From Myxococcota bacterium (GTDB lineage: Bacteria; Myxococcota_A; Bradymonadia; UBA7976; UBA1532), in the NCBI GenBank assembly GCA_963169045.1, contig CAUJDF010000062.1, forward strand, positions 1 through 56,753: a stretch of DNA of 56,753 nucleotides, in the 5' to 3' direction. Positions 8,487 through 22,988 of the stretch are shown in pieces. Under the pieces are notes generated by a model that ran no database searches, had not been told where the DNA came from, and saw only the letters and a program-made list of their open reading frames with translations. Every line of letters begins with the position of its first letter. Position 1 is the first letter of the stretch. The position numbers were made by a program, and so were the translations under genes.

Positions 8487-13862
<5,376 letters not shown>

Positions 13863-13865
13863 GAA

Positions 13866-13884
13866 GGCACTCTGCAAGAGTGCC
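13866..13884 (-). repeat. Perfect 8-bp inverted repeat just upstream of the MopE-like start codon
   Basis: GGCACTCT-gca-AGAGTGCC is a perfect hairpin (8-bp arms, 3-base loop) that begins three bases before the ATG at 13862. It covers the place where a ribosome binding site would be, and no clear Shine-Dalgarno sequence is visible there. It could act as a translational control hairpin or as an operator for a dimeric repressor; neither can be decided from sequence. Confidence 0.6.
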
Positions 13885-14063
13885 GGCAGGCACACAAGTC
13901 TGCTGCCGCGCTGGACGCACTGCCGGTCCGCAGCCGGATCGCGGCGGCCGCACGGCGCGCCGCCGGAGAGGCGAGGTTCCCGCGGCGCGGGGTTCGGGCC
14001 CGAAGGGGCCGGAGCGGCGAGGAGGTGAGAAGCGGAGGCGCGCGGAGCGACGGGCGCTCGCGA

Positions 14064-14231
14064 CTACTTCAGCTTCGCTTCCTTGAAGAGCACGTGCTTG
14101 CGCACCTTGGGGTCGTACTTCATCAGCTCGAGCTTGCCCGTCGCGGTGCGGCGGTTCTTGGTGGTCGTGTAGAAGTAGCCGGTGTCGGCGGTGCTGACGA
14201 GCTTGATCTTCTCGCGCTTGTTCTTGGCCAT
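14064..14231 (-). CDS. rpmG: 50S ribosomal protein L33
   Basis: A 55-residue basic protein reads [20 protein letters not shown] at the start and ends in [14 protein letters not shown]. It matches the L33 family in length and in the [12 protein letters not shown] and [10 protein letters not shown] motifs. It has no cysteines, so it is the zinc-free (C-minus) form. AGGAG lies eight bases before the ATG. It is a component of the large ribosomal subunit near the E site. It stands alone between the MopE-like gene and the divergent TerB-like operon; rpmG often sits beside tRNA-Trp/secE/nusG or rpmB, but none of these is present here. Confidence 0.95.
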
Positions 14232-14368: not shown

Positions 14369-14839
14369 ATGCAGGAGCTCTACGAGGGCGTCGAGCTTTC
14401 GCCCGAACAGACCGAGGTGGTCTGCCGCGGGCTGCTCGACCTGGCGAGCGTGGACGGCACCCACGACAGCGAGATGGCGCTGATCGCCGACTTCTCTGGC
14501 GGCGCCGATCTCGACGCGCTCGCGGCGAAGCCGTTCGAGCTCGCCGCCGCCGCGCAGGTGCTGACGAACGGCGGCGACGCGGTCGTCGAGTCGTTCCTCA
14601 CCTCGTGCTACCTGCTCATCTACGCCGACGGCGACCACTCCGAGGCCGAGCGCGCCCGCGTCCGGGAGTACGCCGACGCGCTGGGCGTGTCCGCCGACCG
14701 GCTCGAGTCGCTTCACACCAAGGCCCGGCTCTACCTCTTGCAGATCCTGGCCACCAACCTGCGCAACAAGGCCGCGGTCCGCGATGTGGCCGCCGAGATG
14801 GGCCTGTCCGAGAACGATCTCGCCGGCCTGGAGGACTGA
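14369..14839 (+). CDS. TerB-like tellurite-resistance-family protein
   Basis: This 156-residue all-helical, acidic protein shows two internal copies of the TerB/DjlA-type motif: LLDLASVDGTHDSEMALIAD (residues about 24-43) and LLIYADGDHSEAERARVREY (about 83-105). Each has an acidic DG-x-(D/S)-E cluster that can bind a divalent cation. The start at 14369 is fixed by AGGAGGA ten bases upstream. One base separates its stop from the next start. TerB proteins occur in membrane-associated stress systems, and the direct neighbours here encode a PspA-like coiled-coil protein and an AAA+ ATPase. A role as adaptor or calcium-responsive component of that complex is inferred from the operon. Confidence 0.7.
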   Translation: MQELYEGVELSPEQTEVVCRGLLDLASVDGTHDSEMALIADFSGGADLDALAAKPFELAAAAQVLTNGGDAVVESFLTSCYLLIYADGDHSEAERARVREYADALGVSADRLESLHTKARLYLLQILATNLRNKAAVRDVAAEMGLSENDLAGLED

Positions 14840-14840
14840 G

Positions 14841-15560
14841 ATGGGCTTCTTCAACCGCATCTACAATCTGTGGAAGGGCTTCGTGAGCATCTTCGTGGGG
14901 CGCATGGAGGAGAAGCACCCCGAGATCGCCTACGAGAACGCCATCAACGGCATGACCGAGAAGTACGCGAAGCTGAAGAGCGCCGCCGCCGGCCTCATCA
15001 AGCATCGCGCGCAGCTCGAGACGCGCATCAAGAAGGCCGAGACCGAGCTCGAGCAGGTGCGGCTCGACGCGCAGACGGCGGTCGACCAGGGCGAGGACGA
15101 GGCCGCGCTCGTCCTGCTGCAGCGGCAGGAGGAGCTCGAGAAGATGCTCCAGGAGTACAGCGCCGACCTGCAGCAGGCCGCGAAGGACGCCGACGCCGCC
15201 AAGGAGTCGCTGCGCGCCCTCGCCAACGAGATCGAGAAGCTCAAGCGCGAGCGCGACAAGGTCATCGCCCAGATCAAGGACGCCGAGGCGCGCAAGCAGA
15301 TCCAGGAGCAGCTCGACGGCCTGTCGGTCGACGACGACGTCAAGGCGCTCTCCAACGTCCGCGAGTACGCCGAGAAGGTGAAGGCCGAGGTCCAGATCGG
15401 CGACGAGCTGAAGGAAGGCTCGCTCGAGGGCAAGCTGGCGGCCATCCGCCAGAAGAGCGGCACGACGCGGGCCTCGGCCAAGCTCGAGGAGATGAAGCGG
15501 GCGCGCGCCGCGGCGAAGGGCGGCACCGCCACCGAGCCCGAGGGCGGCAAGAGCCTGTGA
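14841..15560 (+). CDS. PspA/IM30 (ESCRT-III-like) family coiled-coil protein
   Basis: This 239-residue protein begins MGFFNRIYNLWKGFVSIF, an amphipathic helix like the membrane-binding helix of PspA/Vipp1. A long uninterrupted coiled coil follows (residues about 25-165, e.g. LETRIKKAETELEQVRL and VLLQRQEELEKMLQEY), then a shorter helical tail (VKALSNVREYAEKVKAE) and a flexible end. The DQGEDEAALVLLQRQEEL segment resembles the hairpin of PspA. Such proteins polymerise on membranes, preserve their integrity and are structural relatives of eukaryotic ESCRT-III. The gene starts one base after the TerB-like stop and ends one base before the AAA+ gene, so the three products are surely co-expressed. 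The family call is by architecture rather than by high identity. Confidence 0.72.
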   Translation: MGFFNRIYNLWKGFVSIFVGRMEEKHPEIAYENAINGMTEKYAKLKSAAAGLIKHRAQLETRIKKAETELEQVRLDAQTAVDQGEDEAALVLLQRQEELEKMLQEYSADLQQAAKDADAAKESLRALANEIEKLKRERDKVIAQIKDAEARKQIQEQLDGLSVDDDVKALSNVREYAEKVKAEVQIGDELKEGSLEGKLAAIRQKSGTTRASAKLEEMKRARAAAKGGTATEPEGGKSL

Positions 15561-15561
15561 C

Positions 15562-17361
15562 ATGGTGAGCGCCACCAGCCGGCCGGATCTGCCGCGCGCG
15601 CCCGACCTCCCCGCATGGATGGGGACGCTGCGCGACCGGTACCTCAACACCGACACCAGCCAGTTCATCCTGCACGGCAACGTGCACGACACGGTGCTGG
15701 CGGCCGATCGGGCGTGGGACATGCCCGAGTTCCTCGACGCGTTCTTCGCGCCGAGCGACAAGCTGGTGGTCCACTTCGACCCGGGCCGCGGCGTCTGGTT
15801 CCCCGACGAGCGCCACGCGGCCCGGGCCGCGCGCGCGCTGCTCGCCGCGCGCTACCTCGACGCGTCGAAGGTGGCGCCGCGCGGCGCCGACAAGACGCCC
15901 GAGAAGGCGCTCGCCGAGGCCATCCGCGACGAGCTCGCCATCGAGCGCGATCCCGGCATCGTGCTGCCGGTGCTCGAGGCGCTGCTCGTCCGGCACGACA
16001 TGCCGTGCGCGGTGATCATCCACTACGCCGAGCTCGTGGCGCCCCACGGCGACCCCGCCTCGCTGGGCTTCGACGACCGCACCGCGGCGGCGCGCCTGCA
16101 CCGGTGGAGCCTCTCCACCGAGGTCAACCGCAGCGACAACGTCGTGCTGCTGCTGACGAGCACGATGTCCGACCTGGCCTCGCGCGTGACGCGCAACCCG
16201 CGCGTGGGCGCCATCCACGTGCCCCTGCCGGGCGCGCTCGAGCGGGCGCGCTTCCTGGCGCGGCTGCGGCCCGACCTCGGGTTCGAGCGCGGCGAGAAGG
16301 TCACGCGGGTGACCGCCGGCCTGCAGCTCCGCCAGATCAAGGACCTCATGGCGGCGGTCAACGGCAGCGGCGAGCTCCCGCTCGACGCCATCGCCGAGCG
16401 CAAGCGCGAGATCCTCGAGCAGGAGTGCTTCGGCCTCATCGAGGTCCTCGAGCCGGACCACGACTTCTCCGTCGTCGGCGGCAACGAGCCGATCAAGGCG
16501 GCGCTGTCGCGCATCGCCGAGCACGTGAAGGCGGGGCGGCGCGCGCAGGTGCCGATGGGCGTGCTGCTCGTCGGCCCGATGGGCACCGGCAAGAGCTTCC
16601 TCGCCGAGGCCTTCGCCAAGGAGAGCGGGCTCGCCGCGATCAAGCTGAAGAACTTCCGCGACAAGTGGGTGGGCAGCACCGAGGCCAACCTCGAGAAGAT
16701 CCTCAACGTGATCGAGGGGTTGGGTGAGATCCTGGTCATCATCGACGAGGGCGACCGCTCGCTCGGCGGCGAGGCCGAGGGCGACAGCGGGGTGAACTCG
16801 CGCGTGATCGCCCGCCTCAAGGAGTTCATGAGCGATCCGGACCACCGCGGCCGCATCGTCTTCATGCTGATGACCAACCGCCCCGACAAGCTCGACACCG
16901 ACATGAAGCGGCCGGGGCGCTTCGACCTGAAGATCCCGTTCTTCTCGCCGCAGAACGCCGAGGAGCGCGCGGCCATCCTGCGGGCGCAGGTGAGGCGGCA
17001 CCGCATCCCCGCCGACCTGCCCGACGAGGCGCTGCTGCCCATCCTCGAGGGGCTGCAGGGCTTCGCCGCCGCCGATCTCGAGGCGCTCCTGCTGTTGGCC
17101 TACGACGACTACGAGAGCGGCCACCTGCCGACCGACGTGACCGAGCGGCCGCCGGTGCTCACGGCGCCGTTCCTCGCGCAGGCCGCCCACGACTTCATGC
17201 CCACCCGCGAGGTGGACATGATCGCCTACATGGAGCTGCTCGCCGTCCAGGAGGCGAGCAACCGGCGCCTGCTGCCGGAGCGCTTCCGCGACATCACGCT
17301 CGAAGAGCTGGCGACACGACTCACCGAGGCGCGTTACCGCGCCCTCCGCCCTCGGACCTGA
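15562..17361 (+). CDS. Tandem AAA+ ATPase (degenerate first domain, active second domain)
   Basis: This 599-residue protein has an active C-terminal AAA+ domain. Walker A is GPMGTGKS (338-345), the pore loop is [12 protein letters not shown] (around 368-379, aromatic W369), Walker B is LVIIDEGD (391-398), sensor 1 is MLMTNRPD (435-442) and the arginine finger RPGRFD is at 450-455. The first half (about 30-290) looks like a second AAA domain that has lost its Walker [18 protein letters not shown] (degenerate Walker B), [12 protein letters not shown] (sensor-1-like) and [13 protein letters not shown]. It is the third gene of the TerB-PspA-AAA operon, starting one base after the PspA-like stop. 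It could disassemble or thread the PspA-like polymer as Vps4 does for ESCRT-III; that role is inference. Confidence 0.85.
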
Positions 17362-17389: not shown

Positions 17390-17418
17390 TTGATCCGCTC
17401 CGGTGAACTGCCTATGTT
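17390..17418 (+). promoter_or_regulatory. Predicted sigma-70 promoter of the large repeat lipoprotein
   Basis: TTGATC (17390-17395) and TATGTT (17413-17418) are separated by 17 bases, each with four of six consensus matches. Transcription would begin near 17425, giving a leader of about 20 bases that contains GGGGAGG ahead of the ATG at 17445. This suggests the gene has its own promoter, independent of the AAA+ operon that ends 83 bases upstream. Confidence 0.45.
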
Positions 17419-17444
17419 CCGCGCGGCTCGTGGGGAGGTGTTGC

Positions 17445-22988
<5,544 letters not shown>

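Follow-up and report, generated by a model that had tools for sequence, protein, structure and literature searches.

The closest described system is the pair reported by Ravi et al. (2024; PMC11237479), in which PspA occurs with a protein of two AAA domains whose N-terminal copy is inactive, an arrangement that those authors likened to Snf7/Vps4. Reviews still hold bacteria to be without a clear Vps4, a question that the module analyzed here makes directly testable, since it offers a candidate ATPase and a deletable three-residue handle. The module lies in a 56,753-nucleotide stretch of Myxococcota DNA (contig CAUJDF010000062.1, hereafter the window) and consists of genes for a TerB-like protein (T), a PspA/IM30-family protein (P), and a tandem AAA+ protein (A). 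The pairing of PspA with such an ATPase is already described, and the module is real and conserved; what appear to be new are the TerB partner and a tip on the tail of the A-associated PspAs. A second A subfamily and a different AAA+ partner of a sister PspA clade are also added here. In the main text of Ravi et al. 2024, TerB and a PspA motif at the C terminus both go unmentioned. Popp et al. 2022 (PMC9239133) do not name TerB in their main text either, and the terms searched there turned up no ATPase of this kind; a literature search for TerB together with PspA and AAA+ or Vipp1 returned nothing relevant.

All three genes are on the forward strand, and a single base separates each stop codon from the next ATG. 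T (positions 14369 to 14839) encodes a TerB-family helical protein of 156 amino acids; P (14841 to 15560), a divergent PspA/IM30-family protein of the ESCRT-III superfamily, 239 amino acids long; and A (15562 to 17361), a tandem AAA+ protein of 599 amino acids with a degenerate first domain (D1) and an intact second domain (D2). A sequence-only reading of this DNA had described a three-gene operon with one-base gaps, and its coordinates, 14369 to 17361, are exact; its statement that pspF, pspB, and pspC are absent holds for the immediate surroundings of the locus. A divergent gene for ribosomal protein L33 lies upstream (14067 to 14231, reverse strand), as it also does upstream of P-A in a related genome (G003) in which no T was found, so the place of the module is conserved. 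The locus is flanked by genes for two giant MopE-type repeat proteins of about 1800 amino acids each (8487 to 13895, reverse strand, and 17403 to 22988, forward strand), which carry many metal-binding repeats (Pfam PF11617) and, in one of them, a fibrinogen-C-like domain. We take these proteins to be unrelated to the module.

The Pfam AAA match in A is confined to residues 334 to 460. D1 has neither a P-loop nor an acidic Walker B: the site of the missing P-loop (15658 to 15699) shows no GxxxxGKT, and F35, N40, and D43 there are invariant in 57 homologues. By its sequence, D2 possesses the complete set of motor motifs with an aromatic pore loop. Judged across the same homologues, these are a Walker A motif, GPMGTGKS (16558 to 16599; GPMGTGK invariant), pore loop 1, KWVG (16657 to 16689; W nearly invariant, V-G invariant), a Walker B motif, ILVIIDEGD (16723 to 16761; D395 and E396 invariant), and an arginine-finger region, KRPGRFD (16897 to 16929). 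The description of A as having a degenerate first and an intact second ATPase domain with a W-V-G pore loop is thus borne out by the motifs. An AlphaFold2 model built with the 57 homologues (pLDDT, 93.7; pTM, 0.89) aligns with p97, Rix7, Drg1, and NVL over 460 to 494 residues at Z scores of 23 to 24, and D2 alone aligns with Vps4 (3eih; Z, 23.6; 266 residues) as well as with spastin and fidgetin-like 1. No MIT domain was matched in A at E values up to 1, the model running helix 18-29 straight into D1, and the model contains no Cdc48 N-domain. A is therefore predicted to fold as a Cdc48/p97-like (Cdc48/Rix7-like) double AAA protein without an MIT or N-domain. Against NCBIfam profiles it scored 93.9 bits for Cdc48/p97 (cutoff, 802.65) and 44.5 bits for CdvC (cutoff, 650). 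Membership of the Vps4 family was rejected, given the low CdvC score, the missing MIT domain, and the tandem rather than single AAA architecture; it follows that A is not Vps4, although it may work like Vps4. A PspF-like activator was likewise rejected: the Sigma54_activat profile gave 14.4 bits, below its cutoff of 20.2, and both the sigma-54 domain and a DNA-binding domain are absent.

P matches the Pfam family PspA_IM30 over residues 3 to 221 with 76.5 bits (cutoff, 33.9), and solved PspA/Vipp1 chains in the PDB (6zvr and 8qfv) match it over the full length. It very likely adopts the ESCRT-III hairpin fold, to judge from these sequence matches. Residues 1 to 25 (14841 to 14915, forward strand) form the amphipathic helix alpha0, with a hydrophobic moment of 0.67 over residues 1 to 18; the proposal of a PspA/IM30-type protein with an amphipathic N-terminal helix thus proved sound. 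P, the only PspA found in the genome from which the window comes, also carries a C-terminal extension that E. coli PspA lacks. This stretch (15483 to 15557, forward strand) comprises the end of the last helix, a linker, and the tip, K-S-L-COOH (15549 to 15557), which follows a pattern found in the homologues.

T scores 25.5 bits against Pfam TerB, above the curated cutoff of 24.4, and the homologues tried mostly reached 27 to 37 bits, with one at 18.0, below the cutoff. A profile built from 24 T homologues matched PDB entry 2ou3 (COG3793) at 2e-8, and the same entry was the best Foldseek match (probability, 1.0; TM, 0.55; E, 4e-3) of the AlphaFold2 model of T (pLDDT, 89.4), in keeping with the earlier assignment of T as a TerB-like helical protein. 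The two DG...E motifs that had been noted are real and invariant, but their spelling was not DG-x-(D/S)-E: they read DG-x4-E and DG-x5-E, being DGTHDSE (14453 to 14473) and DGDHSEAE (14627 to 14650, both forward strand), of which D29, G30, and E35 and D87, G88, and E94 are invariant in the 24 homologues. T had been cast as an adaptor, and it is indeed a recurrent partner, but not a required one. Only 30 of 62 genomes with A match the T model (E ≤ 0.001), mostly at unlinked positions, which makes T optional and led us to reject it as a core subunit.

Within the family of the window (13 genomes), T-P-A is contiguous in 11, as the expectation of adjacency in related genomes had it, and P and A are adjacent in 12; the exceptions have P-A without T (G003) or T-P apart from A (G004). 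A wider scan of one genome per species yielded 80 loci with A, with P immediately upstream in about 20 and within the fetched flank in 28, and T linked in 23. Lysobacteraceae have the order P-A-T (L114, L115, L117, L122, L124, L126, and L128), some Myxococcota have genes for an OmpA/NMT1 protein, a permease, and an ABC ATPase between P and A-T, and in many other genomes A is solitary in the fetched stretch. The "strict linkage" of the sequence-only reading therefore holds locally, but universal P-A linkage was rejected, since many genomes carry the two genes at separate positions. The two proteins nevertheless occur together. PspA was found in 73 of 74 Myxococcota genomes with A versus 149 of 210 without it (284 genomes; Fisher tests are descriptive only, since the genomes are related), and exactly one PspA was present in each of 30 A-containing genomes from other lineages, mostly with solitary A. 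In Myxococcota with a strong A match (E at or below roughly 1e-26, with one contig-edge fragment also counted), 64 of 65 genomes had a PspA of one and the same divergent clade, the exception (G186) being an 85% complete draft. That gene order has changed while the association was kept is a good argument that the genes are functionally linked. Linkage, the permuted order of the genes, and co-occurrence lend good support to a module of PspA with a dedicated AAA+ protein.

At four loci, spanning both A subfamilies (L110:1982-2797, L098:5363-5959, L313:7676-8602, and L315:2206-3108), the gene directly upstream of A encodes a protein that seems to be anchored in the membrane, is coiled-coil in part, and has no Pfam match above the cutoff; it may be the membrane anchor of A there. 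Public metagenome-assembled genome records whose titles name Klebsiella pneumoniae or Bifidobacterium breve (L071, L091, L100, and L106) contain a Myxococcota-like A and are probably mislabelled.

The PspAs of genomes with A end in K-[T/S/Q/N]-[L/M/I]-COOH (K or R at the first position) in 65 of 67 unique sequences, behind a variable Ala/Gly-rich linker, and the tip was present in 30/30 PspAs of A genomes from other lineages. Its last three positions carry 2.6 to 3.8 bits of information, versus about 1 to 2.2 in the preceding 22; it would occur by chance in about 0.3% of proteins, and it is kept in 9 of 11 clusters below 60% identity. Among PspAs of A-less genomes of the same phylum, the count was 0/54, plus two exceptions with the tip (G205 and G300), draft assemblies in which no A was found and whose family otherwise usually has A. 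Conversely, one locus (L119) has A and a PspA without the tip. In a genome with two PspAs (G117), the tip is present on the A-type PspA and absent from the canonical one. A deep PspA branch (L099:3951-4925 and L136) combines the two tail motifs, KDLGA and, at the very end, EKTI, and may preserve an ancestral tail of two parts. In ESCRT-III, the MIM binds Vps4 (PMC8281802), and by analogy the PspA tip may be a docking code, comparable to the MIM in position, not in sequence; this comparison is inferential.

In the mechanism that we propose, P would polymerize into a PspA/ESCRT-III coat that lines the inner membrane on its cytoplasmic side. A would assemble into a putative hexameric double ring, with D1 as a nonhydrolyzing scaffold and D2 as the motor, and would grip P at the conserved tip (K-T/S-L type) of its flexible C-terminal tail. 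Drawn into the D2 pore and past the W-V-G loop, the presumed direction of threading, P subunits would be stripped from the polymer, and the coat would stay dynamic in the way that Vps4 keeps ESCRT-III dynamic. T may serve as a cofactor that is not always present, an acidic protein that probably responds to metal and adjusts either A or its contact with P. That A remodels P is probable; the chances that the tail tip is the handle for A are about even, and regulation of A or P by T seems to us a balanced question. The scheme as a whole, in which A strips the P coat by the tail tip and T tunes the process, we mildly favor.

The roles could also be reversed. E. coli PspA restrains the AAA+ protein PspF until membrane stress, and P might similarly be a regulator, not a substrate, which binds A and keeps its ATPase in check until the membrane is stressed, the real substrates of A being other membrane proteins, for example, the linked ABC transporter. 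The nearest A-less PspAs (L219 to L248) feed this possibility, since they show a PspF-like arrangement: in 25 of 28 loci, a response-regulator/sigma-54 AAA+/HTH (NtrC-type) protein adjoins. Related PspA lineages thus appear to differ in their AAA+ partner: one is paired with a transcription activator, the other with a double-ring unfoldase. The ABC ATPase, permease, and OmpA/NMT1 genes held by some A loci point the same way. We nonetheless consider control of A by P unlikely, because A has neither a sigma-54 nor a DNA-binding domain and reads as a pore-loop unfoldase, and because the transporter genes are missing at most A loci, including that of the window.

Another view concerns the tip itself, which might serve as a signal for degradation or bind some other protein or the membrane, with A and P merely co-regulated in a stress operon. 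Partly conserved tips (WDSxDF and VPVAxx) also occur in A-less PspA clades, and conservation of a tip is therefore no proof of AAA+ docking; in canonical Myxococcota PspAs (L189 to L218), the C-terminal tip is often of the W-D-x-D/E-D/E-F type. Moreover, the PspA tree shows four changes of the tail and four of A, with only three to four independent pairs, and the two co-vary largely by common descent. What argues for A as the reader of the tip is that the tip is retained also when P and A lie apart in the genome (including G004) and that a second A subfamily (subfamily II, about 27 to 31% identity in the N-domain) pairs with a different tail motif, its linked PspAs ending in [K/R/L]-x-L-G-P in 10/10 cases. 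A tip that serves something other than A is accordingly a rather improbable reading. An archaeal origin, with A a genuine Vps4/CdvC, would fit the alignment of D2 with Vps4 and the weak CdvC match, but the distance of that match from its cutoff, the tandem AAA architecture, and the missing MIT domain leave it very improbable.

In a wider reading, some bacteria may possess a counterpart of ESCRT-III/Vps4 that was put together independently: a short C-terminal docking tip on a PspA polymer would be recognized by a double ring of the Cdc48 type with a dead D1, which would strip the polymer, and a TerB-type protein would serve as cofactor. The code would differ with the ATPase subfamily (K-T/S-L/M/I-COOH versus x-LGP), and a related PspA lineage would use an NtrC-type AAA+ protein instead. 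We put this wider proposal forward tentatively, as falling a little short of even.

Among known systems, Cdc48/p97, Rix7, and Drg1 share with A the tandem AAA architecture over 460 to 494 residues, but A has no N-domain and its D1 no P-loop. T has the fold and DG...E motifs of TerB/COG3793 proteins (PDB 2ou3 and 2jxu), but its gene stands beside pspA and a tandem AAA gene, not the usual ter genes. The E. coli PspF-PspA-PspBC system likewise combines PspA with an AAA+ partner but differs in that A is no sigma-54 activator and in the tail of PspA. The sequence-only reading had suggested a membrane-remodeling machine distinct from that system; the PspA and AAA+ module is well supported, but the idea was not new, Ravi et al. 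2024 having preceded it. With ESCRT-III/Vps4 (CdvB/CdvC), the module has in common an ESCRT-III-superfamily polymer protein, a pore-loop AAA protein, and a motif at the tail end of the polymer protein; it differs in the two AAA domains of A without MIT, in a tip unlike the MIM, and in a full-length match to Cdc48/Rix7. Closest is the pair of Ravi et al. (PMC11237479; e.g., AEY64321.1), to which A was matched by description: the same kind of pair with a dead N-terminal AAA domain, the same long transporter operons (ABC ATPase, permease, and PBPB-OmpA), and the same Snf7/Vps4 analogy. To this pair, the TerB partner, the tail tip, subfamily II, and the sister-clade partner add a clean experimental handle.
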